NCBI GenBank assembly: GCA_020353235.1
Contig: CP070693.1
Location: 109,015-149,963 of the forward strand
Length of the DNA: 40,949 bases
Source: Dehalococcoidia bacterium
GTDB taxonomy: Bacteria; Chloroflexota; Dehalococcoidia; Dehalococcoidales; JAUYDJ01
Reading direction: 5' to 3'
Shown here: piece by piece, positions 4,221-35,458 of the stretch
Layout: each line of letters opens with the position of its first letter
Numbering within the stretch: the first letter of the stretch is position 1
Position numbers and translations under genes: made by a program
The notes under the pieces: model-generated
The model's input: the letters and a program-made list of their open reading frames with translations, nothing else
What the model was told of the DNA's origin: nothing
Database searches by the model: none

Positions 4221-4229
4221 GTGCCCAAA

Positions 4230-6053
4230 ATGAAAAAGCTATTATCTGGGAACGAGGCTCTGGCCCTGGGAGCCTATCACGCCGGTGTCACGGTAGCCGC
4301 CGCCTATCCGGGAACCCCGAGCACTGAAATTCTGGAATCTCTGGCCGGCTACGATGACATCCACGCCGAGTGGTCAACCAACGAGAAGGTGGCTACCGAA
4401 GTGGCGCTGGGGGCATCCTATGCCGGTGCCCGGTCACTGGTGTCAATGAAACAGGTCGGCCTGAACGTGGCCAGCGACCCGTTCATGGCGGCTTCGACCA
4501 CCGGCGTCAATGCCGGGCTGGTGGTAGTCAGCGTCGATGACCCTGGCATCCACAGCTCCCAGAACGAGCAGGACAACCGCCACTACGCCAAGTTCGCCAA
4601 GGTCCCCCTGCTGGAGCCGAGCGACAGCCAGGAAGCCTATGACTTTATGGCTTACGCCTATGACATCAGCGAAAGATTCGATACCCCGGTGCTGGTACGC
4701 TCCACCACCCACATCTCCCACTCCAAATCAGTGGTTAAGGTAACCGGCCGCCGCGCCGTGCCCGGCCGGGAGCCGAATTTCCCCCCCGACGTGGAGAAGT
4801 TTGTCATGCTGCCGGTCTATGCCCGGCTCAGGCGCCCGCTGGTGGAGGAACGCCTGGCCCAGCTAGCCGGCTATGCCGAGACCTTCCCCTTCAACCAGAT
4901 ACTAGCAAGGGAGCGCCAGCTAGGCATAATCACCAGCGGGGCTGCCTATCAGTATGCCCGCGAGGTCTTCCCGCAGGCTTCCTTTCTCAAGCTGGGGATG
5001 ACCCAGCCCCTCCCCCAAGACTTAATCCGCCGCTTTGTTGCCGAAGTGGATAGGGTAATCGTTATCGAGGAGCTCGGTTCTTTTCTCCAGGAGAATATTC
5101 AGGCGATGGGGATAGCCGTCAGCGGCAAGGAATTCATACCCCGCTTTGGCGAGCTAAGCCCGGAGATAATTGCCCAGAGCTGTCGTGCTGCCGGTTTGCT
5201 TGCTGAATCACCGACCCCGCCCACCAAGCCCGCCCCGGAGCTACCCCAACGCCCGCCCCTGCTCTGTGCCGGCTGCCCCTATACCGGCCTGTTCTTCACC
5301 CTGAGCACTATGGGGCAGCGCTCCGCACTGGTGAAATCCAGGGTTAAAAAAGTGGCCAAATCAAACCTGATTATTACCGGCGACATCGGCTGCTACACCC
5401 TAGGCGCCTATCCCCCGTTCTTCGCCATGGACACATGCGCCTGTATGGGGGCCGGCATCGGTCAGGCACTGGGTATGGAGAAGGCAGGGGTTAGTAATAA
5501 AGTAGTTGCCGTCATCGGTGATTCTACTTTTCTGCACTCCGGCATAACCGGCGTGGTCAACGGCGTCTATAATAAAGGCGAAATAACCATCGTAATCTTG
5601 GACAACCGCACCACCGCCATGACCGGCCACCAGAGCCACCCCGGCACCGGTGTTACCGCCCGCGGCGAAAAGACCAGCATAGTTGAGCTGGAACGGCTGG
5701 TGCGAGGCATCGGCGTCAATGATGTTAAAGTAGTTAATGCCTTCGACCTGAAGGCATTAAGAACCAGCGTAAGGGCGGCGCTGGATAACCCGGAGCTTTC
5801 TGTGATTATCGCCCGCGGCGACTGCCCCGACCCGGCCGCAGCACGCCCCAGGCCCCTAGTTATTGCTACCGAAAAGTGCGACCAGTGCAATATCTGTCTC
5901 CGCCTCGGCTGCCCGGCCATTCAGATTGACGACGGGCAGGTCTTTATTGAGGCTACTCTGTGCGCCGGCGACACCTGCTATCTGTGCCAGCAAGTATGCC
6001 CGCGACAGGCCATAGTTTTTCAGTCCGAGAGCAGCACCCAGGAATCAAAGTGA
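4230..6053 (+). CDS. iorA: Indolepyruvate:ferredoxin oxidoreductase, alpha subunit
   Basis: 607 residues. IorAB oxidatively decarboxylates arylpyruvates (indole-, phenyl-, hydroxyphenylpyruvate) to aryl-acetyl-CoA and passes electrons to ferredoxin in the cytoplasm. The N-terminal half has the pyruvate-oxidoreductase fold (LLSGNEALALGAYHAGVTVAAAYPGTPSTEI; STNEKVATEVALGASYAG). The middle carries the thiamine diphosphate site (GDIGCYTLG, then GDSTFLHSG...ILDNRTTAMTG). The C-terminus has two 4Fe-4S motifs (CDQCNICLRLGCP and CYLCQQVCP). I choose the ATG at 4230 over the GTG at 4221 because the promoter -10 ends at 4220. No Shine-Dalgarno can then exist, which implies leaderless translation. The stop overlaps the iorB start. 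Confidence 0.93.
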   Translation: MKKLLSGNEALALGAYHAGVTVAAAYPGTPSTEILESLAGYDDIHAEWSTNEKVATEVALGASYAGARSLVSMKQVGLNVASDPFMAASTTGVNAGLVVVSVDDPGIHSSQNEQDNRHYAKFAKVPLLEPSDSQEAYDFMAYAYDISERFDTPVLVRSTTHISHSKSVVKVTGRRAVPGREPNFPPDVEKFVMLPVYARLRRPLVEERLAQLAGYAETFPFNQILARERQLGIITSGAAYQYAREVFPQASFLKLGMTQPLPQDLIRRFVAEVDRVIVIEELGSFLQENIQAMGIAVSGKEFIPRFGELSPEIIAQSCRAAGLLAESPTPPTKPAPELPQRPPLLCAGCPYTGLFFTLSTMGQRSALVKSRVKKVAKSNLIITGDIGCYTLGAYPPFFAMDTCACMGAGIGQALGMEKAGVSNKVVAVIGDSTFLHSGITGVVNGVYNKGEITIVILDNRTTAMTGHQSHPGTGVTARGEKTSIVELERLVRGIGVNDVKVVNAFDLKALRTSVRAALDNPELSVIIARGDCPDPAAARPRPLVIATEKCDQCNICLRLGCPAIQIDDGQVFIEATLCAGDTCYLCQQVCPRQAIVFQSESSTQESK

Positions 6054-6655
6054 AAAAGCTAGACTTGCTTATTGCCGGGATGGGAGGCCAGGGGATTATC
6101 CTGGCCAGCGATATCATCGCTGAGGTAGCCCTGGCCAGCGGCTATGATATCAAGAAGACCGACACCAGAGGCATGGCGCAGCGGGGCGGCAGTGTGGTCA
6201 GTCAGGTGCGTATCGCCGAGCAGGTCTTTTCCCCCCTAATCAGGTCGGGGGAGGCCGATATGCTGCTCGCCTTTGAGAAATTAGAGGCGGCGCGGTGGGC
6301 TTACTACCTCGGTGGCTGGGGGACAGTCATTGCCAATAATCTCGCCCTGCCCCCGCTCACGGTTACCCTCGGTTATGAAACTTATCCCAGTGATGCCGAG
6401 ATAACCAGACTGGTCAAGCGCCAGAAGAATCATTTCTATCTGGTCAACGGCACCGAGCGGGTCAAAGAACTGGGCAATATCCGTACACTCAACATATTCA
6501 TGCTGGGCTGTGCCTCGCTTTTACTGCCCTTCAGCATTGATACCTGGGAGGAGGTTATCGCCCAGCGCCTGCCCGCCAAAATCAGGCAAATCAATCTGAG
6601 CGCCTTCAAACAGGGCAGAAAGGAAATGCCGGCCATCCATCTCAGGGAAGGTTAG
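6050..6655 (+). CDS. iorB: Indolepyruvate:ferredoxin oxidoreductase, beta subunit
   Basis: 201 residues from a GTG at 6050 that overlaps the iorA stop by 4 bp (GTGA), with CAGGA about 7 nt upstream. MKKLDLLIAGMGGQGIILASDIIAEVAL is the family N-terminus, and the KKTDTRGMAQRGGSVVSQVRI segment is conserved in the gamma-type domain of 2-oxoacid:ferredoxin oxidoreductases. It forms the heteromer with IorA. Longer upstream extension of the frame lies entirely inside iorA and is rejected. Confidence 0.92.
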   Translation: MKKLDLLIAGMGGQGIILASDIIAEVALASGYDIKKTDTRGMAQRGGSVVSQVRIAEQVFSPLIRSGEADMLLAFEKLEAARWAYYLGGWGTVIANNLALPPLTVTLGYETYPSDAEITRLVKRQKNHFYLVNGTERVKELGNIRTLNIFMLGCASLLLPFSIDTWEEVIAQRLPAKIRQINLSAFKQGRKEMPAIHLREG

Positions 6656-6671
6656 CAAGATATGAGGGGGG

Positions 6672-7109
6672 ATGAATAAAATGTCAGGACAGGAAAACAG
6701 TGCCGCTGATAATCTGGCGGAATTAAAAGCCAAAGCCAAAGCCGAGCCGATTGCCTCTTTCCTCAACATGCACCTGATAGAGCTGTCGCCCGGCTATGCC
6801 AGGATAGCCATGAAGCTAAGTCCCGAATACCAGAACTTCAACGGTCTGGTCTTCGGCGGCATCGTTATGGCGGTGGCTGACCAGGCCTTTGCCTATGCTT
6901 CTAATTCCCTGGCTTATCCCAGCATCGCCTCCCAGTTCAATATCCACTTTATTGCCGGTGCCGGTAAAGACGACGAGCTCACCGCCGAGGGACGGGTGGT
7001 GAAAAGCGGCCGGCGCGCCGGCCTCTCCGAGATGACGGTGACCAACCAGGAGGGCAAGCTCATCGCCAAAGCCACCGGCACCACCATTCCAGTAGGCTCC
7101 AGCCGGTAG
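6672..7109 (+). CDS. PaaI-like hotdog thioesterase
   Basis: 145 residues with the hotdog-fold signature YQNFNGLVFGGIVMAVADQAFAYASNS (about 56-82). Family members hydrolyse acyl- or aryl-CoA thioesters such as phenylacetyl-CoA. The usual HGG motif reads FGG here, so the His at the family's active-site entrance is replaced by Phe, while the downstream Asp (VADQA) is kept. It sits 16 bp after iorB with a G-rich Shine-Dalgarno (6664-6671), so it is likely in the iorAB operon, where it could release aryl-acetate from the CoA product. An alternative ATG at 6681 is possible. Confidence 0.8.
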   Translation: MNKMSGQENSAADNLAELKAKAKAEPIASFLNMHLIELSPGYARIAMKLSPEYQNFNGLVFGGIVMAVADQAFAYASNSLAYPSIASQFNIHFIAGAGKDDELTAEGRVVKSGRRAGLSEMTVTNQEGKLIAKATGTTIPVGSSR

Positions 7110-7124
7110 CCGGGTGCCCCGATA

Positions 7125-7154
7125 TTGACAGGGAATTTTTAATTGTGCTAAACT
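7125..7154 (+). promoter_or_regulatory. Strong promoter of the acyl-CoA/Liv operon
   Basis: TTGACA (7125-7130), an 18-bp spacer, TAAACT (7149-7154) with an extended TG (7146-7147). The predicted start point near 7161 leaves a leader of about 200 nt before the acyl-CoA synthetase. Confidence 0.75.
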
Positions 7155-7160
7155 ATCCCA

Positions 7161-7340
7161 TCTTTGAAGCGGGCCGAAGGTCGAGAGTAATGTTAACTGC
7201 CGAGCACTATTTGGAGAGAGCCAAATTCGTCTTTACCGAGCGCACTGGGGTGCGCTTGGGAGGGCTTTTGCGATAAACTGAAACAGGTCTAGTTAGTAAA
7301 TATATGCCTAAAATGCCTCCCAGGCGGGAGGCATTTTTGT
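7161..7340 (+). ncRNA. Structured leader RNA, candidate riboswitch/attenuator
   Basis: No reading frame fits this stretch, which lies between a strong promoter and a terminator. Visible helices are GGCC-GAA-GGTC, ATTTGG-AGAGAG-CCAAAT (7209-7226) and a GCGCAC/GTGCGC stem near 7240-7256. A GGGAGG run (7258-7263) can pair with the CCTCCC 5' arm of the terminator (7316-7321), giving an antiterminator-like alternative. That arrangement is typical of transcription-attenuating leaders. It lacks the UGGNACCGCG of a T-box, and I could not match it to cobalamin, SAM, TPP, FMN, lysine, glycine or c-di-GMP riboswitches from memory. An independent small RNA (for example 6S-like) is the alternative. Confidence 0.55.
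7311..7335 (+). terminator. Intrinsic terminator in the leader
   Basis: Perfect 11-bp stem AAATGCCTCCC (7311-7321) / GGGAGGCATTT (7326-7336), 4-nt loop, with T residues to 7338. It lies before the gene it would control, so it is a regulated or leaky terminator, or the end of a separate small RNA. Confidence 0.75.
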
Positions 7341-7363: not shown

Positions 7364-9268
7364 ATGGAAAAGTGTGATACTATCCCAAAGCTCATCCAGC
7401 ATAACTTTGGAAAATGGGGCGACCGCCCGGCCATGTGCATGAAGCAATTCGGCGTCTGGCAGAGGTACAGCTGGCAGGAGTACTACCAGAAGGTAAAGCA
7501 CTTCTCCCTGGGCTTAATCAGCCTGGGGTTGAAACCGAGGGATGTGGTCTGCATCATCGGGGATAACGAGCCGGAATGGTTCTGGGGGGAGTTCGCCGTC
7601 CAGGCCGCTGGCGGTATCGTCACCGGCATCTTCGTTGACTCGATTCCATCTGAGGTAAAATACATCGCCACTCACTCCGACGCCAAATTTGCCATCGTTA
7701 ATGACCAGGAACAGACCGATAAATTCCTCCAGATTAAAGACGAGCTACCTTCACTGAAGAAGGTCATCTACTGGGACCCCAAGGGGCTGCGCAATTATGA
7801 TGACCCCATTCTTATCAATTTTATCGAAGTAATCGAACTGGGCAAAAAATACGAGGCAGCCCACCAGGATTTGTTTGAACAGAACGTAGCTCAGGGTAGC
7901 GGGGAAAACACCGCTTTTATCTACTACACCTCGGGCACTACCGGCCTGCCCAAGGGAGCCATACTGACCCATCAGTCCCTGATAACCACTGCCAAGGGAT
8001 TTACCAGCCGCTACCCCCTGAATGAGAATGATGACCTGATTTCCAACTTTCCGGCGGCCTGGGTGGGTGACAGCTACTTTGCCACCATCCCCCATCTGCT
8101 AACCGGAGCCAGGCTCAACTTTCCCGAAGAGGCGGAAACCCTGGCCCAGGATACCCGTGAGGTCGGCCCCAACTTCGCCATCTACGGCCCCCGACAGTGG
8201 GAAGGGCTGGTCAGTGAGATTCAGGTAAAGATGATTGATGCCCACCCCCTGAAGCGCTTTGTCTATCACCTATTTATGCCCATCGGCCACAAGATTGCAG
8301 ATATTAATTTCAAGGCCAAGACCCCCAACCTGTTCTGGCGAGCCCTTTACCGGTTAGCCTATCTCTTACTGTTCCGGCCGCTCAAAGACCAGCTGGGGCT
8401 GGGCAAGGTCAGGTTTGCCGTCACTGGGAGCTCGGTGCTGAGCCTAGATACCTTCCGGCTAATCCATGCCATCGGTATTGAGCTGAGGCAGAACTATGCC
8501 AGCACCGAAGCCGGCTTTATCTCCTCACACGGCAAGGGTGAAATCAGCTTTGAGAGCGTCGGGCGACCGGCGCTGGGCACCGAGGTCAGAATAACCGATG
8601 CCGGCGAGCTTCTGGTCAGAAGTGACTGCATGTTCAAGGGGTATCACAAAGACCCTGAAAAAACGAAACAGGCCCTGATCAACGGCTGGTGCCATACCGG
8701 GGACGCCGTCCATATTAATGAGAAGGGGCACCTCATCTTCATGGACCGGCTGGAGCACCTGGGTGAGCTGAGTTCGGGGGTGAAGTATGCCCCGCAGTAT
8801 ATCGAGGGGCGGCTCAGGTTCAGCCCCTACATCAAGGATGCTATGGTTATCGGCGGCAAAGACAAAGAATTTGTCTCCGCCATATTGAACATAGACTTCA
8901 CCATGGTCGGCAAGTGGGCGGAACGCAACCACATCCCCTACACCACCTTTGTTGATTTATCCCAGAAGAAAGAGGTTGCCGATTTAGTGCAGAAAGACAT
9001 GGTCCGGGTCAACAGCTACCTGCCCGAGCCAGCCAGAGTCAGAAAATTCGTGCTGCTACACAAAGAGTTTGACCCTGATGAAGCCGAACTCACCCGGACT
9101 AGAAAGCTGAGAAGGGACTTTATGGAAGAACGCTACCGCGAATTAATCAGTGCCATGTATCAGGACGGCAAGAGCGTCACCGTTAAGGCTCCGGTAACCT
9201 ACCGCGACGGACGGAAAGGGGTGGTCAGCACCGATATTAATGTCAGGGAGGTGGCGGCAGAGACATAA
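7364..9268 (+). CDS. Long-chain-type acyl-CoA synthetase (AMP-forming)
   Basis: 634 residues from the ATG at 7364 (AGGGG at 7351-7355). The frame continues upstream but would run back through the terminator hairpin, so that part is rejected. The adenylate-forming P-loop YYTSGTTGLPKGA (about 187-199) is intact. Further motifs are YASTEAG, a HTGD-type ATP/ribose motif (GWCHTGDAVHINEKGHLIFMDR) and a C-terminal lid. It activates a carboxylic acid with ATP and joins it to CoA; the overall form resembles long-chain fatty acid or AMP-binding-protein FadD15-like enzymes. It overlaps livH by 1 bp (TAATG). Pairing with an ABC importer suggests trapping of an imported acid as its CoA ester (inference). 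Confidence 0.9.
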   Translation: MEKCDTIPKLIQHNFGKWGDRPAMCMKQFGVWQRYSWQEYYQKVKHFSLGLISLGLKPRDVVCIIGDNEPEWFWGEFAVQAAGGIVTGIFVDSIPSEVKYIATHSDAKFAIVNDQEQTDKFLQIKDELPSLKKVIYWDPKGLRNYDDPILINFIEVIELGKKYEAAHQDLFEQNVAQGSGENTAFIYYTSGTTGLPKGAILTHQSLITTAKGFTSRYPLNENDDLISNFPAAWVGDSYFATIPHLLTGARLNFPEEAETLAQDTREVGPNFAIYGPRQWEGLVSEIQVKMIDAHPLKRFVYHLFMPIGHKIADINFKAKTPNLFWRALYRLAYLLLFRPLKDQLGLGKVRFAVTGSSVLSLDTFRLIHAIGIELRQNYASTEAGFISSHGKGEISFESVGRPALGTEVRITDAGELLVRSDCMFKGYHKDPEKTKQALINGWCHTGDAVHINEKGHLIFMDRLEHLGELSSGVKYAPQYIEGRLRFSPYIKDAMVIGGKDKEFVSAILNIDFTMVGKWAERNHIPYTTFVDLSQKKEVADLVQKDMVRVNSYLPEPARVRKFVLLHKEFDPDEAELTRTRKLRRDFMEERYRELISAMYQDGKSVTVKAPVTYRDGRKGVVSTDINVREVAAET

Positions 9269-10155
9269 TGGCTGAGTTACTGCAATACCTGATTAGCGGT
9301 CTGGCGGTAGGGATGATTTATGCCCTGATTGCCCTCGGCTTTGTCGTCGTCTGGAAGTCGAGCAGTGTCGCCAATCTGGCGCTTGGCCAGCTGGTGCTAT
9401 TCTCTGCCTGGTTTACCTACGGAATGCTGGTTCAGGCCAATTTCCCCCTGTGGCTGGCTTTTCCTCTGGTTATCCTGTTCTCGCTAGCGTTGGGCTGGGT
9501 AATCGAGCGACTCGCCCTGCGTCCTCTGATTGCCCAGCCTATTTTATCTCTGATTACGATAACACTGGGCGTGGCCTACTTTATTGAAGGCGTGGTAACC
9601 CTTATCTGGCCCAAGAGTGTGGCTGCCCTGCCCCGCTTCTTCCCGACCCAGCCCATCCGTATCGGCCCGGCGGTGGTCTCTCAAGAATATGTCTGGGTAG
9701 CCGGCATCTCGCTGATAGTATTCGTCCTGCTCACCCTCTTCTTCCGCTATCACCGCATGGGTATCGCCATGAGGGCAACCGCTGATGACCAGCTTGCCGT
9801 TCAGGCCTGTGGTATCCCGGTAACCCGAATTTTCTCCCGGTCATGGATGTTCGCCTGCCTCGTCGCCGCCATCGGCGGTATTCTGGTCTCCAGTATCGGC
9901 GGCATTACCTACGGTCTAGTGGAAACCGGACTCAAGGCTTTCTCGGTGGTAATACTGGGCGGGCTTGACTCGTTCATCGGCGCCATTATCGCCGGACCGA
10001 TTATCGGGCTCTGCGAGAACCTGGGCGGGGGCTACCTTACCCCGATTATTGGCTGGGCGGGGGTGAAAGATATCATACCCTTTATCATTATCATCATTGT
10101 TATGATTATCAAGCCCTACGGGCTATTTGGCGAGGTTCGTATCGAGAGGATATAG
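9268..10155 (+). CDS. livH: Branched-chain-type ABC permease LivH
   Basis: 295 residues, very hydrophobic, with the LivH N-terminus (LLQYLISGLAVGMIYALIALGFVVVWKSSSVANLALGQLVLF) and the C-terminal region VILGGLDSFIGAIIAGPIIGLCENL typical of this permease. About eight membrane helices. It pairs with LivM to form the membrane channel of a HAAT-family importer. Many systems of this family carry aromatic or other carboxylates rather than leucine. It starts within the stop of the acyl-CoA synthetase, so the two are translationally coupled. Confidence 0.92.
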   Translation: MAELLQYLISGLAVGMIYALIALGFVVVWKSSSVANLALGQLVLFSAWFTYGMLVQANFPLWLAFPLVILFSLALGWVIERLALRPLIAQPILSLITITLGVAYFIEGVVTLIWPKSVAALPRFFPTQPIRIGPAVVSQEYVWVAGISLIVFVLLTLFFRYHRMGIAMRATADDQLAVQACGIPVTRIFSRSWMFACLVAAIGGILVSSIGGITYGLVETGLKAFSVVILGGLDSFIGAIIAGPIIGLCENLGGGYLTPIIGWAGVKDIIPFIIIIIVMIIKPYGLFGEVRIERI

Positions 10156-10158
10156 TCT

Positions 10159-11214
10159 ATGACGCTACCGAGTGGAACACGCAATTATACCTATGCCCAG
10201 GACATGGCCATTCTGCGCACCAAAACCCAGTGGGTATTAATGGCTGTCTTTCTGGTTCTCCTGCTCACCGCCCCCCTCTACCTCGGCAACTACCTGCTGA
10301 GCGTGGCTAACCTGATTGGCATCACCCTTATTGCCGCCACCGGACTGAATATTCTGACCGGCTACTGCGGGCAGCTATCGGTCGGTCACGCCGGCTTTAT
10401 CGCCGTGGGTGCCTACACCTCAGCGGTGCTGACCAACCGGCTGGAGCTCCCCTTCCTGGTCGGCTTAATCTGTGCCGGCTTAATGGCGGGGCTGGTCGGG
10501 CTTATCTTCGGCATTCCCTCAATCCGGGTCAAGGGCTTCTATCTGGCGATTACTACTATTGCCGCCCAGTTCATCATTATCTGGGTCATCAACCACTGGT
10601 CTTCCGTAACCGGCGGCTTCGTCGGCATACCGGTGCCCGAGGCTTCCATCGGGGGTTTTACCTTTCGCGGCGAGGCAAGCCAGTTCTACCTCATCTTCGG
10701 CATCGTGATGCTGGTTATTTTCTTTGCCAAGAACCTGGCACGAACCAGAGTGGGCCGAGCCTTCATTGCCATACGGGATAACGACTTAGCCGCCCAGGTG
10801 ATGGGCATCAATATTTTCTACTACAAACTGCTGGCCTTCTTTATCGGCTGTTTTCTGGCCGGGATAGCCGGCTCACTGATGGCTCACTGGATTGGCTTCA
10901 TGAACGCCGAGCACTTTTCCCTGACCGAGTCAATACTCTATATCGGCATGATAATCATCGGTGGTCTGGGCACCACATTGGGACCCATTTTCGGGGTGGT
11001 CTTTATCCGTCTCCTCCAGCAGGTGTTAACCGTGATGGTGGTTCCCTCGCTGGAGTCGACCTTCACCGCCCTGCCCTCCGGATTTGCCACCGGTGTTGCC
11101 CCGATGCTGTTCGGCCTAATAATCGTGCTCTTCCTGATACTTGAGCCACGGGGACTTGCCCACCGCTGGTCACTATTTAAGTCTGCTTATCGCCTATGGC
11201 CATTCTCATACTAG
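10159..11214 (+). CDS. livM: Branched-chain-type ABC permease LivM
   Basis: 351 residues. LivM hallmarks include NILTGYCGQLSVGHAGFIAVGAYTSAVL (about 65-93), AIRDNDLAAQVMGINIFYYKLLAFFIGCFLAGIAGSL and IIGGLGTTLGPIFGVVFIRLL. It is a multi-pass membrane protein that partners LivH. It begins 3 bp after the livH stop. About 90 bp follow before the binding-protein gene. Confidence 0.92.
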   Translation: MTLPSGTRNYTYAQDMAILRTKTQWVLMAVFLVLLLTAPLYLGNYLLSVANLIGITLIAATGLNILTGYCGQLSVGHAGFIAVGAYTSAVLTNRLELPFLVGLICAGLMAGLVGLIFGIPSIRVKGFYLAITTIAAQFIIIWVINHWSSVTGGFVGIPVPEASIGGFTFRGEASQFYLIFGIVMLVIFFAKNLARTRVGRAFIAIRDNDLAAQVMGINIFYYKLLAFFIGCFLAGIAGSLMAHWIGFMNAEHFSLTESILYIGMIIIGGLGTTLGPIFGVVFIRLLQQVLTVMVVPSLESTFTALPSGFATGVAPMLFGLIIVLFLILEPRGLAHRWSLFKSAYRLWPFSY

Positions 11215-11305: not shown

Positions 11306-12568
11306 ATGAAAAACCGAAAATTTGTCATATTTGCTGGACTCATCTGCCTCGCCTTGATGGTAGCCCTGCTGCCTTTGGGCAGCGCCTGTGGCCCCGAAGA
11401 AGCCAAGACACTGAAGATAGGCATAACCACACCATCAAGCGGCAAGGCAGCGGAGAAGGGAGCCCCGATGGGAAACGCCAATCGGGACGCCATTGAATAT
11501 GTCAATGCCGAACTCGGTGGCGCCGCCGGCTACCCGATTGAGCTGATGTGGCTGGACAATGGCTATGATGCGGCTAAAGTGGTTACCAACGTCAATAGAT
11601 TCATGGACGAAGGCTGCCTCATGTTCGCCACCGCTTCTTCGGCGATGATGTCGGCGAGTATGGAAATCGCCAACCGGGCTGAGTTTCCCGGGCTGGCTTC
11701 TTTTACCGCGCCCAGTCTGTACCGTCCCCCCAAGCACATCTACGGCCAGATGCCGGACTACGGTGACGATGCCCTCGCCTTTGCCAGCTATTTCATGGAC
11801 AATATCTGGCAGGAGTCGCGAAAACCAAAGTTTGCTCTGCACCTCCTGAATAACCCCACCGGCTACGGTGCCCGCGATGCCTTCAAGGCCAAGGCTGACG
11901 AGCTGGGTATTGAGATTATCTCGGTTGATGAGCACGCCGCAACCACCACCTCGGAGATGGAGTCCCTGACCCGAATCAAGGCATCAAACCCCGATGTGCT
12001 CTATATCTCCAGCACACCGGCACCGACGGCGGTCATCATCAAGAATGCCTATGACCTGGGCCTGTATCCAGGAGTGACCATCGGCCTGGGGCATGCCGGT
12101 ATTACCAAGGCACTGGTTGACATCGCTGGCGCCGATATTGTCGAGGGTGTCTACGGGGTGTTCCCCACCGTGAACTGGGGCGATGATGTACCCGGCATGG
12201 CTAAGATGACCGAGTACTGCCGCAACCTTCACCCCGAAGATGAGGGCAATATGGACTACATCACATCTTGGGCACAGAGCCTGATTATGGTTGAGATTCT
12301 GCGGGTAGCCGTGGGCAATGTCGGCTATGACGCCCTGGCCAAAGGAGATGTAGATGCCTGGCGAGCCCTAGAGACCCAAGGTATTCAGAAGCTCAAGGAC
12401 TATGACGTCGGCGGTCTCCATGGTCCGGTCAACTACACCGCCGGGGACAACCGACTTTCCAAGTCAGTCAGGGTCTTCCAGATACAGAACGGGGTAATCA
12501 CCCCCATCAGTGGCTGGGTGGAAGCACCCGTGGTCAAATACGAGGACTTTGACTGGTTCGGCAAGTAG
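11306..12568 (+). CDS. ABC importer substrate-binding lipoprotein (Peripla_BP_6 type)
   Basis: 420 residues. A lipoprotein signal with lipobox LGSAC (Cys28) is followed by KTLKIGITTPSSGKAAEKGAPMGNANRDAIEYVNAELGG, the start of a two-lobed Leu/Ile/Val-type binding protein. Later segments such as GVYGVFPTVNWGDDVPGMAKMTEYCRN fit the family. It is anchored outside the membrane and delivers ligand to LivHM. The ligand cannot be told from sequence; neighbouring CoA ligases make an organic or aromatic acid plausible. The ATG has AGGAGG 7 nt upstream. It probably needs more protein than the permeases, consistent with its own strong ribosome site and the hairpin behind it. Confidence 0.9.
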   Translation: MKNRKFVIFAGLICLALMVALLPLGSACGPEEAKTLKIGITTPSSGKAAEKGAPMGNANRDAIEYVNAELGGAAGYPIELMWLDNGYDAAKVVTNVNRFMDEGCLMFATASSAMMSASMEIANRAEFPGLASFTAPSLYRPPKHIYGQMPDYGDDALAFASYFMDNIWQESRKPKFALHLLNNPTGYGARDAFKAKADELGIEIISVDEHAATTTSEMESLTRIKASNPDVLYISSTPAPTAVIIKNAYDLGLYPGVTIGLGHAGITKALVDIAGADIVEGVYGVFPTVNWGDDVPGMAKMTEYCRNLHPEDEGNMDYITSWAQSLIMVEILRVAVGNVGYDALAKGDVDAWRALETQGIQKLKDYDVGGLHGPVNYTAGDNRLSKSVRVFQIQNGVITPISGWVEAPVVKYEDFDWFGK

Positions 12569-12634: not shown

Positions 12635-13426
12635 ATGCTCAAATTAAATAACATTGAGGTGACATACCTCAATGTTATCCGGGTGCTGCACGGTGTCTCG
12701 CTGGATGTAGAGGACGGGGCGATTGTGGCTCTGCTCGGCGCCAACGGCGCCGGCAAAAGCACCACCCTCAAGGCAATATCCGGCCTGCTTCACGTTGAGG
12801 AAGGCGAGGTAACCGATGGCAGTATTGAGTGGAACGGCGCCCGAATAGACAGAAAAAGCGCCGAAGAAATCGGCAAGCTGGGCATTATTCAGGCCCTAGA
12901 GGGGCGTCGCGTCTTCGAGCACCTGACTACCGAAGAAAACCTGCTGGTGGGAGCGTTTAACCGCAGCGACCGCAGTGGGGTGAAGCCGGACCTGGAGATG
13001 GTCTATAACTACTTCCCCCGGCTGAAGGAGCTGCGGCGCAACACCGCCGGCTATCTCTCCGGAGGCGAGCAGCAGATGCTGGTCATCGGCCGGGCTATGA
13101 TGGCTACCCCCAAGCTCATGATGCTGGATGAGCCATCGCTCGGTCTGGCACCGCTGCTGGTGGAGGAAATATACGATATCATCCGGCGCTTTAACACCGA
13201 GCACAAGACCTCGGTGCTGCTGGTGGAGCAGAACGTCAGAATTGCGCTCAGTATCGCCGACTACGGCTATGTGATGGAAAACGGGCGCGTTGTCCTTGAC
13301 GGCACCACCGATTTCCTGAGCAACAACGAGGACGTCAAGGAGTTCTATATGGGGCTTTCCGCCATGGGCACCAAGAAGAGCTACCGGGAAGTAAAGCACT
13401 ATAAGAGGCGCAAGCGATGGCTCTAA
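12635..13426 (+). CDS. livF: Branched-chain-type ABC ATPase LivF
   Basis: 263 residues. Walker A GANGAGKS (35-42), Q-loop QALEGRRVF (LivF-specific, about 86-94), signature LSGGEQQ (141-147), Walker B LMMLDEP (161-167) and the switch His region LLVEQN. The C-terminal tail is unusually basic (KKSYREVKHYKRRKRWL). It energises LivHM together with LivG. The start is an ATG behind GAGG; the 3' end overlaps the next gene by 10 bp. Confidence 0.92.
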   Translation: MLKLNNIEVTYLNVIRVLHGVSLDVEDGAIVALLGANGAGKSTTLKAISGLLHVEEGEVTDGSIEWNGARIDRKSAEEIGKLGIIQALEGRRVFEHLTTEENLLVGAFNRSDRSGVKPDLEMVYNYFPRLKELRRNTAGYLSGGEQQMLVIGRAMMATPKLMMLDEPSLGLAPLLVEEIYDIIRRFNTEHKTSVLLVEQNVRIALSIADYGYVMENGRVVLDGTTDFLSNNEDVKEFYMGLSAMGTKKSYREVKHYKRRKRWL

Positions 13427-14703
13427 AAGCTAGGCCAGACGAATACTTTGATGAACTGGAGACAATGCCGGCGCAGGCCAGGCAGAAATACCAGAACCAG
13501 CAACTGTCCTGGACGGTAGCTAACGCCTACCGCCATGCCCCGACGGTAAAGAAGATGTTTGATGAGGCCGGGGTCAGCCCCGCCCAGATTGGCACCGTAA
13601 AGGACCTGGAAAAGCTGCCCATCATCAGAAAGACCGACCTGATTGAGTGGCAGAAGCAAAATCCCCCCTACGGCGGGTTTCTGGCCGTTCCCGTGCCGGA
13701 TGTGGAACGCGTCTTTATCTCACCGGGGCCGGTCTATGAGCCCATCCAGCACTCCGGCATCAAGTGGTTCGCCAAATCCTTCTGGGCAGCCGGCTTCAGA
13801 AAGGGCGACATTGTCATCAATACCTTCACCTATCATATGTCGCCGGGGGGTATTCTGTTTCACGAAGCGCTGAAGCACTGCGGGGCAACCGCCATACCGA
13901 TGGGCATCGGCAACACCGAGACCCAGATACAGACCATGCTTGACCTCGGGGTTAGCGGCTTCGTGGGCACCCCCTCGTTTCTGATGACCATCATCAAACG
14001 CGCCGAAGAGCTGGGCTATAACTTCAGTCAGGACTTTGGCCTGCGCCTTGCCTGGTTCACCGGTGAGATGCTGCCCCCCTCAATGAGGGTAACCCTTGAG
14101 GAGGACTATCACATCGCCACCGCCCAGGCCTATGCAGTTACCGAGCCGGGTGGCGCCATCGCCTACGAGTGCCGCCAGAAATCGGGCATGCACCTGATGG
14201 ACGAATATGTCGTCGAAATAGCTGACCACGAGACCGGGAAACAGCTGGGCCCCAACCAGACCGGTGAAATCGTATTAACCCCCATCCACAACCGGACCTG
14301 GGGGCTTATCCGTTTCGGCACCGGTGACCTGTCTTCATATATTACCGAAGCTTGCCCCTGCGGACGCACCGCCAACCGGCTGACCGGCATCGTGGGCCGG
14401 ACCAGCGATGCGGTTAAAGTCAGGGGGATGTTCGTCGTTGCCCGACAGGCGGAACATGCTGTGGCCGGCTTTAGCTCCATCTCCCGATTTCAGATAATCG
14501 TCGGACGCAGTGCCTATCGAGACGTGATGACCCTCAAGGCTGAGCTGAAGGGCGAAGCCGTCGATAAAAAGAAGCTGGCTGATGACCTGGGCCGAAAATT
14601 CCAGGAAATATGCCGCATGAAGCTGGATAAGATTGAGCTGGTGGCGGCGGGGAGTATACCCGAAGAGCACCAGGCAATCGTGGATGAAAGAAGCTGGGAA
14701 TAG
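13417..14703 (+). CDS. PaaK-like adenylate-forming protein without canonical P-loop
   Basis: 428 residues, the length of phenylacetate-CoA ligases. PaaK-like features are the N-terminal QLSWTVANAYRHAPTVKKMFDEAGVSPAQI, KDLEKLPIIRKTDL, TGEMLPPSMRVTLEEDY, AYAVTEPGGAIAYEC and IRFGTGDLSSYI plus CPCGRT. Where PaaK has an SSGTTGKP ATP loop, this protein reads ISPGPVYEP (101-109). Adenylation by the standard mechanism is therefore doubtful; it could bind nucleotide differently or act as an accessory. It overlaps livF by 10 bp, so translation is coupled to the importer. A role in activating or sensing an imported aryl acid is inference. Confidence 0.82.
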   Translation: MALKARPDEYFDELETMPAQARQKYQNQQLSWTVANAYRHAPTVKKMFDEAGVSPAQIGTVKDLEKLPIIRKTDLIEWQKQNPPYGGFLAVPVPDVERVFISPGPVYEPIQHSGIKWFAKSFWAAGFRKGDIVINTFTYHMSPGGILFHEALKHCGATAIPMGIGNTETQIQTMLDLGVSGFVGTPSFLMTIIKRAEELGYNFSQDFGLRLAWFTGEMLPPSMRVTLEEDYHIATAQAYAVTEPGGAIAYECRQKSGMHLMDEYVVEIADHETGKQLGPNQTGEIVLTPIHNRTWGLIRFGTGDLSSYITEACPCGRTANRLTGIVGRTSDAVKVRGMFVVARQAEHAVAGFSSISRFQIIVGRSAYRDVMTLKAELKGEAVDKKKLADDLGRKFQEICRMKLDKIELVAAGSIPEEHQAIVDERSWE

Positions 14704-14704
14704 G

Positions 14705-15577
14705 CTATTTCTCTTGGCCCAGATAGGCGGCGATAACCTCAGGGTTAGTTCTAATTTGGTCAGGGGTACCTTCGGCGATTTTGCGCCCGAAATCAAGCAC
14801 CACCACCCGGTCGGCGATATCCATCACCACCCCCATGTCATGCTCCACTAGGATGATGCAATTGACCCCATCCCTTAACACCGGCGTTTCGGGATAAGTA
14901 ACCCCCTGCCCTTCAAAGATATCAATGATGAAGCGGGCGATGTCCTCTTTCTCTTCTAGATTCATGCCCGCCATCGGTTCATCAAGGAGCAGCACGGTCG
15001 GTTCCAGAGCCAGGGCGCGGCCCAGCTCAACCCGCTTGCGCATGCCATAGGGCAGGACGCCGACCACCCTTTTTCTAATCGGCTCTATCTCCAGAAAATC
15101 GATAATATCCTCCACCGTTCGGCGGTGCTCAATCTCCTCACTGTGCGCCCAACCGAAATAGAGGGAACTGGCCAGGAAGTTCTGCTTCATGAGCACGTGG
15201 CGTGCGGCCATAATGTTGTCCAGGGTGCTCAGCCCGGTATAAAGCTCAATATTCTGGAAGGTGCGCGCCAGACCGAGACGGGCAGCCCGGTCGGGGCGGA
15301 TGCGGGTGATGCGCTTGGCATCATAATATATCTCGCCCTTTTGCGGCTTGTAGAAGCCGCTGATGCAATTCAGCAGGCAGGTCTTGCCGGCACCATTGGG
15401 GCCGATAATAGCCAGAATTTCGTTTTCCCTTATCTCCAGGCTGACATCATCCAGCGCTTTTACCCCGCCAAAGGCAAGGGACAGGTTTTCAATGCGTATC
15501 TTTACCCGGTTCTGGCTCTCTTTGCCGGGTGGGGAGCTGGTTGACGGTTTCAGCGCCGGTTTCTCTTTATCACTCAA
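14705..15577 (-). CDS. livG: Branched-chain-type ABC ATPase LivG
   Basis: 290 residues. Walker A GPNGAGKT (59-66), LivG-type LARTFQNIELYTGLSTLDNIM, signature region VLPYGMRKRVELGRAL, Walker B VLLLDEPMAGMN and switch VEHDMGVVMDIADRV. An extra segment of about 17 residues (EGQGVTYPETPVLRDGV) sits before the switch His, and the N-terminus has a 25-residue polar tail. It lies on the strand opposite the rest of the liv genes and converges on the PaaK-like gene with one base between the stops. It is presumably the partner of LivF, expressed from a separate promoter. Confidence 0.92.
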   Translation of the reverse strand: MSDKEKPALKPSTSSPPGKESQNRVKIRIENLSLAFGGVKALDDVSLEIRENEILAIIGPNGAGKTCLLNCISGFYKPQKGEIYYDAKRITRIRPDRAARLGLARTFQNIELYTGLSTLDNIMAARHVLMKQNFLASSLYFGWAHSEEIEHRRTVEDIIDFLEIEPIRKRVVGVLPYGMRKRVELGRALALEPTVLLLDEPMAGMNLEEKEDIARFIIDIFEGQGVTYPETPVLRDGVNCIILVEHDMGVVMDIADRVVVLDFGRKIAEGTPDQIRTNPEVIAAYLGQEK

Positions 15578-16074: not shown

Positions 16075-17073
16075 ATGAGAAAGAATGTGTTAAAGGTACT
16101 AATCAGCGTAACTTGTTTGCTAATGGTATTAGCCGTTGCCTTGCCGATGATGACCGGATGTGGACCAGGCACGATGAAGATTGGCATCACCCAGATTGTT
16201 ACTCACCCAGCGCTGGATGCCAATCGCCAGGGCTTCATTGACCAGATGGCGGAAGAAGGCTTCGTGGAAGGGGAAAATGTGGAATATGATTACCGCACCC
16301 CTGAGGGCGATATGACGATAGCCGCATCTATCGCTCAGAAGTTCGTCACCGATAAGGTTGACCTGATTCTGGCCATAGCTACCCCCACTGCGCAGGCTTG
16401 TGTCCAGGCAACCGAAGGCACTGATATTGAGATAGTTTTCGGTTCGGTAACCGACCCGGTAGCCGCGGGCCTGGTGGATAGTTGGGACAAACCCGGTGGC
16501 AGCGTCACCGGCATCAGCGATTGGGCTGATGTAGGCACCCAGATACAGCTGGTGGTCGATATTGTGCCCGATGTTAAGAAGCTGGGCGTCATCTACAATG
16601 CCGGTGAAGTAAACTCCAAAGTGCAGGTAGATGAACTGAAGAAAGTAGCCCCCGCTATGGGCATCACCGAAATCGTGGAGGCTACTGCGGCTACATCAGC
16701 CGATGTGCTGGCGGCAGCTCAATCACTGGTCGGCAGAGTTGATGCCATCTGGATTCCCACCGACAACACCGTGGTATCCGCCTTTGAGTCGGTGGTGAAG
16801 ATCAGCGAAGAGAACCAGATACCGCTCTTTGCTGCTGATGTTGCCACCGTGGAGAGAGGCGCCATCGGCACTCCCGGCATCGACTACTATCAATTAGGCC
16901 GAGAATGTGGTCAGGTAGCCGCCCGTATTCTGCAGGGCGAGAGTCCGGCTGACATCCCAGTGAAGAAAGTGGATATGACCGACCTATTTTTGAACCCGTC
17001 AGCGGCCGAGCGGATGGGCTTAACCATCCCTCAGTCGGTGCTGGACAAAGCCACCGAGATCGTCGGAGAATAA
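16075..17073 (+). CDS. ABC_sub_bind (TrpX-like) substrate-binding lipoprotein
   Basis: 332 residues. Lipoprotein signal with lipobox MTGC (Cys29), then MKIGITQIVTHPALDANRQGFIDQMAEEGFVEGENVEYDYRTPEGD, the hallmark of the ABC_sub_bind family (YNT/TrpX type). IVFGSVTDPVAAGLVDSWDKPGGSVTGISDW is also diagnostic. TrpX homologues in Firmicutes serve tryptophan uptake; others carry unknown ligands, so tryptophan is a hypothesis here. It is the first gene of a three-gene importer with its own promoter; ATG with AGGAGG 6 nt upstream. Confidence 0.9.
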   Translation: MRKNVLKVLISVTCLLMVLAVALPMMTGCGPGTMKIGITQIVTHPALDANRQGFIDQMAEEGFVEGENVEYDYRTPEGDMTIAASIAQKFVTDKVDLILAIATPTAQACVQATEGTDIEIVFGSVTDPVAAGLVDSWDKPGGSVTGISDWADVGTQIQLVVDIVPDVKKLGVIYNAGEVNSKVQVDELKKVAPAMGITEIVEATAATSADVLAAAQSLVGRVDAIWIPTDNTVVSAFESVVKISEENQIPLFAADVATVERGAIGTPGIDYYQLGRECGQVAARILQGESPADIPVKKVDMTDLFLNPSAAERMGLTIPQSVLDKATEIVGE

Positions 17074-17155
17074 GGCTACTATATTAAGCAAGCTTAGTGC
17101 CAGGCACAAACAATAAAATATTTGTTGATTTCCAAACCTGACACCGGAGACAAAA

Positions 17156-18064
17156 TTGGATATCTTCGGAAACATCCTTGGCGTAGCCTGCTACGAAGGG
17201 TTAGTCTTTGGTCTGGTCACTATCGGTGTTTATATCACCTTTCGGGTTCTGGCCTTTCCTGACCTCAGCGTAGACGGCACTTTTCCTCTGGGTGGCGCCA
17301 TCGCGGCGGTGCTGATTGTGGCTGGTGTCAACCCCTTTCTGGCCACGCTGGCGGCTCTGGGCGGCGGACTGGTCGCCGGGCTAGTAACCGGACTGCTCAA
17401 CACCAAACTCAGAATCAGTGCCCTGCTCGCCGGCATCTTGATGATGGTCGGGCTTTATTCCATCAATTTGAGGATAATGAGCGGGGCTAATGTCCCTCTG
17501 CTGCGCGAGGTGACCAGCTTTGATGTCATCGCCGAGCTCTTTGGCTTGCACGGAGGGCTAGCCGTATCCATTACTCTGGTATCGGTAGTGGTCACCCTCT
17601 TTTTCGTGGTACTGAACTGGTTTTTACGCACCGAAATTGGCTTAGCCTTAAGAGCCACCGGCGATAATGAGGAAATGGTGCGCGGCTTCGGCATTGACAC
17701 TGACAAGACAGTACTGCTGGGTTGCTCTGTTTCCAACGGGCTGGTGGCTCTGGCTGGTGCCCTGGTGGCCCAAAACCAAGGGTTCAGCGATGTCGGTATG
17801 GGCATCGGTATGATTGTGCTGGGGCTGGCGGCAGTGATAATCGGCGAAGGGCTGTTTCATCCTAAGGGAATCGCGCCAATATTACTCGCCTGCCTAGGCG
17901 GTACCTTTGTCTATCGCTTATTTATAACAATCGCCCTCCGGCTGGGTATGGCTCCCGGTGACCTGAAGCTTATAACCGCTCTATTAGTGGTGATGGTGCT
18001 GGCGGTACCCTATCTGCAAAAGAGAATGCGGAAGGAGTGGCTGGAACCAGCTAAAAGGTGGTAA
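17156..18064 (+). CDS. ABC permease, TrpY-like
   Basis: 302 residues with about eight to nine hydrophobic segments. FRVLAFPDLSVDGTFPLGGAIAAVLI and LRISALLAGILMMVGLYSINLRIMSG are typical of the permease that travels with ABC_sub_bind proteins. A conserved permease loop appears at LRATGDNEEMVRGFGID. The start is a TTG at 17156 (MDIFGNILGVACYEG), with GGAGA about 7 nt upstream; no ATG is better placed. It overlaps the upstream part of the ATPase frame and is followed immediately by it. Confidence 0.9.
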   Translation: MDIFGNILGVACYEGLVFGLVTIGVYITFRVLAFPDLSVDGTFPLGGAIAAVLIVAGVNPFLATLAALGGGLVAGLVTGLLNTKLRISALLAGILMMVGLYSINLRIMSGANVPLLREVTSFDVIAELFGLHGGLAVSITLVSVVVTLFFVVLNWFLRTEIGLALRATGDNEEMVRGFGIDTDKTVLLGCSVSNGLVALAGALVAQNQGFSDVGMGIGMIVLGLAAVIIGEGLFHPKGIAPILLACLGGTFVYRLFITIALRLGMAPGDLKLITALLVVMVLAVPYLQKRMRKEWLEPAKRW

Positions 18065-18069
18065 TCAAG

Positions 18070-18906
18070 ATGACCACGAAGGCAACCGGAAATCACCGCC
18101 TGCTGCAACTGAAGAGTATTAAGAAAGTATTTGCCCGCGGCACGATTGACGAGGTAACCGCGCTGGCGAGCATAAAGCTGGACATCTATGACCAGGACTT
18201 TGTGACCGTTATCGGCAGCAACGGCGCCGGCAAAACCACCCTGCTCAACATTATCGCCGGAGTCTACCCTCCGGAAAGAGGTGGCAGCGTTACCATAAGT
18301 GATGAGGATGTTACCCATCTTCTAGGATACCGACGGGCGGTCTATATCGGCCGGGTATGGCAGCAACCGGAAACGGGAACCGCCGGCAAGCTGACCATTG
18401 AGGAGAACCTTTCTCTGGCGCTGTTGCGTGGTCAGTCAAGAGGACTGAAGGGGGCCACCAACAAGCAGCGCCGGCAGCTGTTCCGCGAAGAACTAGCCGT
18501 GCTCGGGCTGGGGCTAGAAAACAGGCTGAACACACCGGTCTACACTCTCTCCGGGGGACAGAGGCAGGCTTTATCCCTGGTGATGGCGACCATCTCCAAG
18601 CCGGCGATATTACTGCTTGATGAGCACATCGCCACCCTGGACCCGAAGACAGCTAAAACCGTGCTCGATTTAACCGATAAGATTGTGCGCCTGGAGCAGA
18701 TGACCACCATAATGGTGACCCATAACATGGAGATTGCCCTAAATTACGGCAATCGGCTGATTATGATGCACAAAGGCAGAATTATCGTTGATATGGGTGA
18801 GGCAAAAAAGAAGGCACTCAAGGTCAGTGACCTGGTATCTGCCTTTGAGCGAGCCGCCGGGGAGGAGTTTGATGATGATACCATCCTCCTCAGCCGCGGG
18901 GAGTGA
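18070..18906 (+). CDS. ABC ATPase, TrpZ-like
   Basis: 278 residues from the ATG at 18070, with AGGTGG 9 nt upstream; a GTG at 18058 overlaps the permease stop and is less likely. Walker A GSNGAGKTT (49-57), signature LSGGQRQ, Walker B ILLLDEHIATLDP (His where DEP is usual, as commonly seen in this subfamily) and switch MVTHNME. It energises the adjacent permease. The last gene of the unit; a convergent acetyltransferase follows. Confidence 0.9.
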   Translation: MTTKATGNHRLLQLKSIKKVFARGTIDEVTALASIKLDIYDQDFVTVIGSNGAGKTTLLNIIAGVYPPERGGSVTISDEDVTHLLGYRRAVYIGRVWQQPETGTAGKLTIEENLSLALLRGQSRGLKGATNKQRRQLFREELAVLGLGLENRLNTPVYTLSGGQRQALSLVMATISKPAILLLDEHIATLDPKTAKTVLDLTDKIVRLEQMTTIMVTHNMEIALNYGNRLIMMHKGRIIVDMGEAKKKALKVSDLVSAFERAAGEEFDDDTILLSRGE

Positions 18907-35174: not shown

Positions 35175-35203
35175 AAAAAACCTCTCGCCATAGGGGCGAG
35201 AGG
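35175..35203 (-). terminator. T-box regulated terminator
   Basis: On minus: CCTCTCGCC (35195-35203) pairs with GGCGAGAGG (35181-35189), a perfect 9-bp stem with a short loop, followed by six T residues (35175-35180). It lies 24 bp before the trpE ATG. Confidence 0.93.
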
Positions 35204-35458
35204 TTAATCCTTCGCGGTGCCACCCTAATTAATCGCTAGTTTAGCAACCATCTCTTTCAGGTACAGCTCTTAAAGCGATACCCTGGGCTCTGATAACGGT
35301 GCCCGCTCCGTCAACACCTAATCGGTCCAACCCTTTCGGCTTGCGGCTCCCGAGTCCATTCACTCCTAACACTGGCCCCGGCTCACACCTCACCCGGTTC
35401 TCTGAGCCTCGCTTAAGAGCTACTACTCTCGTTCGCAGCCTTTAGCATTATTCAATTG
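35175..35458 (-). promoter_or_regulatory. T-box leader (tRNA-Trp specific) of the trp operon
   Basis: The minus-strand leader has every T-box part. Stem I starts near GAACGAGAGTAGTAGC, has an AGAG and GGTGTGAG distal region, and a specifier loop with UGG-A (UGG at 35356-35358). The T-box core UGGCACCGCG is at 35213-35222, followed by a terminator. UGG is the only Trp codon. The C after UGG in the T-box matches the G73 discriminator base of bacterial tRNA-Trp. Uncharged tRNA-Trp should stabilise the antiterminator and switch on trpEGDCFBA. The antisense frame is non-coding. Confidence 0.93.

Follow-up and report, generated by a model that had tools for sequence, protein, structure and literature searches.

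Which signal does the leader RNA ahead of an acyl-CoA synthetase operon of a Dehalococcoidia bacterium respond to? The window studied here, a stretch of 40,949 nucleotides, is part of a 1.12-Mb single-contig genome whose nearest relatives by synthetase protein are Dehalococcoidia. An earlier note, made from the sequence alone, had described a promoter, a non-coding leader with two possible, mutually exclusive structures and a terminator before the gene, and had proposed either a riboswitch, with an amino acid among the guessed ligands, or a stand-alone small RNA.

Results

The elements of the strong extended -10 promoter proposed earlier could be located (Table 1), and a similar TTGACA...TATGnTAnaCT lies 5' of the element in relatives. 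The terminator is perfect and precedes the gene as described, but its stem comprises 12 bp instead of 11 (7310-7321/7326-7337, loop AGGC, five T, computed energy -19.1 kcal/mol). From the promoter and terminator positions, a terminated transcript of ~175 nt is predicted. The leader folds more stably than shuffled sequences (z -2.75). The proposed pairing of GGGAGG (7258-7263) with CCTCCC of the terminator stem (7316-7321) was recovered at exactly these positions within a longer helix of 11 bp. A start at 7304, giving a synthetase of 654 aa, was rejected because of its overlap with the terminator and because the match to relatives begins at about ATG 7364.

Table 1 Features of the leader and the surrounding genes in the window.
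Feature	Positions	Strand	Basis or remark
IorA/IorB indolepyruvate ferredoxin oxidoreductase (IOR)	4221-6655	+	5' of leader, outside its control
PaaI-like thioesterase	6672-7109	+	5' of leader, context; PF03061, PaaI model below cut-off
Extended -10 promoter	7125-7154	+	TTGACA 7125-7130, 18-nt spacer, TG 7146-7147, TAAACT 7149-7154
Weak Shine-Dalgarno-like AAGG	7177-7180	+	9 nt 5' of leader ATG; sequence
Leader peptide ORF (uORF), 28 aa, MLTAEHYLERAKFVFTERTGVRLGGLLR	7190-7276	+	ATG 7190 to TAA 7276, frame open in relatives
Phe-Val-Phe control codons UUC-GUC-UUU	7226-7234	+	F-x-F kept in 50/51 leaders, x variable
Protector hairpin P1 (1:2)	7236-7259	+	7236-7245 with 7250-7259, extends to 7229-7265; covariation
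Antiterminator 5' strand CGCTTGGGAGG	7253-7263	+	P1 3' arm plus GGAGG; pairing, covariation
Rho-independent terminator ahead of first gene	7310-7338	+	12 bp, loop AGGC, T-tract
Antiterminator 3' strand CCTCCCAGGCG	7316-7326	+	Terminator 5' arm plus loop; pairing, covariation
AMP-binding acyl/aryl-CoA synthetase, first regulated gene	7364-9268	+	PF00501
LivH-type permease	9268-10155	+	PF02653; 40/40 relatives
LivM-type permease	10159-11214	+	PF02653; 40/40 relatives
LivK-type substrate-binding protein	11306-12568	+	PF13458; 40/40 relatives
LivF-type ATPase	12635-13426	+	PF00005; best NCBIfam match LivF, below cut-off
PaaK-like phenylacetate-CoA ligase family protein	13417-14703	+	Best NCBIfam matches PaaK models, below cut-offs

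A DNA search of 101 relatives revealed a conserved block around positions 7211-7271. Scanning with the synthetase protein yielded 80 loci, mostly from Dehalococcoidia, and most of the closer orthologues carry a similar block at most ~250 nt upstream, with a terminator behind it whose stem reads CCTCCC...GGGAGG. Conservation in relatives, named earlier as a check, is thus present: dozens of Dehalococcoidia have the element 5' of their orthologous acyl-CoA synthetase gene. BLASTN against plasmids gave no match.

The description of the leader as non-coding is contradicted by a short open reading frame within it. When a start was sought 4-25 codons upstream with the frame open in between, this frame offered one in 48 of 49 leaders and the other two in 14 and 5; the start was ATG in 45 leaders, and the other frames contained 0 and 0 ATG. 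Across a 12-codon window the uORF frame is stop-free in 49 leaders, the other two showing 20 and 37 stops. The short leader ORF with start and stop that leader-peptide attenuation calls for is therefore found in 48/49 leaders. Its AAGG forms a Shine-Dalgarno duplex of -4.9 kcal/mol, which is not strong against background, and the signal across leaders is likewise weak (mean -3.8 kcal/mol, in comparison to -2.8 at random positions).

The F-x-F motif is in frame in 50 of 51 leaders, the remaining one being cut by a contig end. In all 50 it begins 25-33 nt 5' of the antiterminator strand, and in relatives it lies directly 5' of P1; by these positions and by the state folding described below, the control codons are placed where a stalled ribosome would block the protector hairpin. 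The first Phe codon is UUC in 45 leaders and UUU in 5, the middle codon is highly variable and the second Phe codon is UUU in all 50, an invariance that may partly stem from RNA pairing (UUU with GAGG). F-x-F-T-x-R-T is fairly conserved among leaders. 3' of the control codons the protein frame is lost in relatives (VRLGG, GARGRF or immediate stops), indicating that conservation there concerns the RNA; in a few (L046, L049, L074, L096) the stop codon lies within P1. The peptide of the window genome has two Phe codons only. Six relatives that form a divergent group (L045, L056, L060, L062, L094, L095) contain runs of Phe, such as FNFFFFFFST, and MHTQARSFNFFFFFFSTPAGEPGRALT in L045.

P1 has a computed energy of -17.0 kcal/mol (-22.7 in its extended form), and the antiterminator helix of 11 bp (7253-7263 with 7316-7326) one of -20.9 kcal/mol as a duplex. 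P1, antiterminator and terminator are mutually exclusive. In an alignment of 46 sequences with a mean pairwise identity of 55% (A1), P1 and terminator together showed 57 cells changed on both sides, compared to 22 in shuffles, and the antiterminator 22 compared to 5.3; these shuffles ignore relatedness, and the counts are to be read as support, not as probabilities. Both structures outscored versions slid by 1-3 columns in pairing and covariation score. Each leader strand paired better with its own terminator than with those swapped in from other loci in all 20000 permutations. Compensated antiterminator pairs occur in L039 and L063 (TTAGAGG/CCTCTAA) and in L082-L084 (GCCGGGGG/TCCCCGGC). The two exclusive structures considered possible from the sequence are thus backed by covariation in both alternative helices.

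To represent ribosome states, footprints were masked during folding, which makes them assumptions; the result for a ribosome at the stop codon follows from the mask, as the strand is covered by construction. For a ribosome halted at UUU and a transcript that extends just beyond the terminator loop, the window forms the antiterminator (-26.8 kcal/mol). The same stalled-ribosome folding gave the antiterminator in all 44 loci, with a mean of ~10 pairs compared to ~4 without ribosome. At equilibrium, the terminator still wins in the stalled full-length window RNA, with mixed outcomes among relatives, and full-transcript equilibrium folding did not discriminate between ribosome states. An attenuator model hence needs co-transcriptional kinetics, on which known attenuators likewise rely.

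When run against genomes, a covariance model built from the Phe leaders of synthetase loci had matches in 76 of 101 from the order and in 59 of 393 sampled across the class. As it was trained on Phe leaders, Phe close to the anchor is in part expected in its matches; this does not apply to runs of Tyr or Ile/Leu/Val. With this model, another copy was found in the genome of the window (C1:1076226-1076459, L112:4227-4460); it encodes the Tyr/Trp/Phe-rich peptide MSIYFAPYWYYYFFSERIGCAGGALV, including YFAPYWYYYFF, and precedes an aro-pheA-tyrA operon with the order DAHP synthase-aroB-aroD-aroE-aroK-aroA-aroC-pheA-tyrA, in which the DAHP synthase is assigned by Pfam and NCBIfam and the other aro names by reading of translations.

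With the frame set by the covariance model we read 118 distinct leaders; this fixed frame misplaces two ilvE matches and a few others (L233, L250, L211), which were kept in the counts. The control codons follow the target gene. Before DAHP synthase (58/118), 56 leaders contain Tyr, with a mean of 3.5 Tyr in 11 codons; the 35 preceding acyl-CoA synthetase have means of 0.6 Tyr and 3.1 Phe. None of 100000 label permutations reached this Tyr difference, and since one genome can hold both kinds of leader, it is not explained by taxonomy. Three leaders before acetolactate synthase carry Ile/Leu/Val codons (SPGLILISIII), and a leader with MIAPVVLVTIVVAAAILIVRT in L180 precedes a gene named by reading as branched-chain-aminotransferase-like. 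The codons thus fit the regulated pathway, clearly so for aro (Tyr) and ilvB/ilvE (Ile/Leu/Val); in the synthetase-liv operon they are Phe codons for a putative pathway.

Further targets were found. Six leaders with Tyr runs, e.g., HYYYYYYYYAF, in many cases alongside one or two His codons, stand before HisC-type aminotransferase genes (L191, L192, L194, L200, L203, L215), which suggests dual histidinol-phosphate/aromatic aminotransferases. The Ile/Leu/Val leaders of ilvB and ilvE-like genes (L180:988-1107, L180:8992-9103, L244, L246) have a similar GUGCGCAC hairpin scaffold. Phe/Tyr leaders also precede CoA-transferase III and 2-hydroxyacyl-CoA dehydratase genes (L135:1501-1632 on the minus strand, L150, L153, L190:547, L152), loci that resemble aryl-lactate (Fld-like) chemistry. 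At octopine/nopaline dehydrogenase-family genes (PF02317) in L137 and L193, the leaders read VYYTNFTF and VYYTAFIF.

Where a leader-bearing locus had sufficient sequence downstream (40 loci), LivH, LivM and LivK genes always follow the synthetase gene. Within the fetched upstream flank, a PaaI-like thioesterase was found in 31 of 38 relatives and IorB in 20 of 38. IorA of the window scored 690 bits with TIGR03336, over the cut-off, and the IorB models remained below theirs. A LivG-type ATPase gene (14705-15577, minus strand) is convergent to the liv operon, so that the two ATPases of the transporter would be under different control. Further on, the window encodes an ABC transporter like the TrpXYZ type, with binding protein, permease and ATPase (16075-18906, plus strand), before which the covariance model found no attenuator; a permease related to it in L145 has a YYMNFIF leader.

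No Rfam family reached its threshold at the leader; at gathering and permissive settings the only matches were weak and terminator-driven. Phe_leader (RF01859) scored 25.7 bits against a threshold of 55 with a match that rests on the terminator, which places the leader outside that family. The named Rfam check hence bears out the earlier view that neither a T-box nor a known riboswitch class is present, and it gave no match to 6S RNA. The only T-box (RF00230) match in the window is a 98-bit leader at 35189-35445 (minus strand), directly 5' of a trpE-led operon running from 35151 down to 28668 on that strand; the genome thus uses a T-box for trp and leader peptides for aro and the synthetase-liv operon.

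Discussion

Comparison among relatives establishes the uORF, its Phe codons, the three helices and their position. On this basis, we consider it very probable that the leader is a ribosome-mediated transcription attenuator of the trp/pheA type sensing Phe supply, and not a riboswitch. From this arrangement we infer ribosome stalling, its timing and the direction of the response, in which a shortage of Phe-tRNA most likely switches the operon on. During transcription of the leader by RNA polymerase, a ribosome would already be translating the 28-codon peptide. Under a shortage of Phe-tRNA(Phe) this ribosome would stall at UUC7226/UUU7232 and cover the 5' arm of P1, leaving 7253-7263 free to pair with 7316-7326 once made; the terminator would be blocked and the acyl-CoA synthetase-liv operon transcribed. 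With plentiful Phe, the ribosome would reach the stop at 7274-7276 and cover 7253-7263, or P1 would re-form, so that the terminator could form and transcription end near 7338.

Terminator/antiterminator control, as proposed earlier, is strongly supported, and an amino acid was among the guesses, but the sensor appears to be a translated uORF and not an aptamer. A riboswitch whose ligand is an acyl/aryl acid, a CoA ester or an amino acid would account for a conserved leader with exclusive structures and no Rfam match. However, conservation tracks a reading frame, no conserved aptamer core exists besides control codons, P1 and terminator, and the scaffold recurs before different pathways, each time with codons that suit the pathway, which leaves this explanation extremely improbable. 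We likewise see very little chance for a TnaC-like arrest peptide that senses free Phe or an aryl acid, such that abundance and not shortage induces the operon. The fair conservation of F-x-F-T-x-R-T would suit such a peptide, as would the resemblance of the operon to aryl-acid/amino-acid utilisation genes, possibly substrate-induced. Yet relatives have lost the residues 3' of F-x-F or carry them frameshifted (RTGGARGRF, RT-stop, STPAGEPGR), a pattern expected when conservation acts on the RNA hairpin, and Phe runs together with Tyr or Ile/Leu/Val versions of the scaffold favour codon counting. The short predicted transcript could also be a stand-alone small RNA that ends at the terminator and has no role in the downstream operon, but the element is conserved just 5' of the synthetase gene and in its direction, the antiterminator strand covaries and a coding signature is present; the probability of this reading is close to negligible.

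The attenuator is therefore the preferred reading of the leader; the role of the operon is a weaker inference, either Phe acquisition through amino-acid uptake or import and CoA activation of aryl acids. The genes for IorA, the PaaI-like and PaaK-like proteins and the acyl-CoA synthetase hint at aryl-CoA chemistry. Imported, CoA-activated aryl acids could be carboxylated by the neighbouring IOR to the 2-oxo acid; in methanogens, aryl acids are known to be turned into aromatic amino acids by way of reverse IOR. An operon induced by Phe shortage would suit salvage of this kind and, equally well, plain amino-acid uptake; we hold aryl-acid salvage to be possible, at clearly less than even odds. 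Phe auxotrophy as an explanation is ruled out by the pheA-type (prephenate dehydratase-type) gene in the aro-pheA-tyrA run, and the operon is thus not a replacement for lost Phe synthesis. There is an even chance that the attenuator holds and serves a general starvation response or branched-chain/aromatic amino-acid uptake instead of salvage, a reading that can coexist with the attenuator and concerns the operon role alone. The constant presence of Liv-type transporter genes (40/40 relatives) and the ability to make Phe with its own pheA/tyrA speak for it, whereas IOR and PaaI-like genes upstream in many relatives and the PaaK-like and synthetase genes pointing to aryl-CoA chemistry speak against it.

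A more tentative idea, which we rate as rather unlikely in its joint form, is that the Dehalococcoidia scaffold is homologous throughout, was copied between operons and re-aimed by its block of Phe, Tyr or Ile/Leu/Val codons, including the Tyr-codon attenuators of the aromatic pathway, the Phe version supplying Phe from imported aryl acids via reverse IOR.

The mechanism is of a known kind, and by score the leader is not a member of Rfam Phe_leader. Like the enterobacterial pheA leader (pheL), it combines a short Phe-codon peptide, exclusive hairpins and a rho-independent terminator before the gene, but convincing sequence homology is lacking, the phylum differs and the target is acyl-CoA synthetase-liv, not pheA. 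With E. coli trp attenuation it shares the 1:2, 2:3, 3:4 layout, control codons just 5' of the protector hairpin and a strand 2 near the stop codon; here, however, the codons are Phe, Tyr or Ile/Leu/Val, and within one class of Chloroflexota a similar scaffold is found on operons of several kinds. T-box leaders, one of which precedes trpE in the window, also respond to uncharged tRNA and control a terminator, whereas the present leader would sense via a translating ribosome. Leader-peptide attenuation outside Proteobacteria is known from Actinobacteria and Firmicutes (PMC1262725, PMC2965389), phyla other than the one studied here. A 2010 survey stated that leader-peptide systems had previously been shown, to its authors' knowledge, only in Proteobacteria and Actinobacteria, and added its own Firmicute cases; its main text does not mention Chloroflexi or Dehalococcoides (PMC2965389). 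For the Rfam leaders, a study from 2013 suggested an origin in gamma-Proteobacteria (PMC3766115). We found no report of leader-peptide attenuation in Chloroflexi in the open-access literature, and no Tyr-codon attenuator was described in the literature searched.

Leader-peptide attenuation is now indicated for the mostly uncultured class Dehalococcoidia, and the Phe codons link a widespread acyl-CoA synthetase-liv operon to the supply of phenylalanine. The amino acid concerned can be read from the control codons, so that such leaders give a functional clue to operons of no assigned role. With the covariance model and the codon rule, amino-acid regulons become readable straight from metagenome-assembled genomes.
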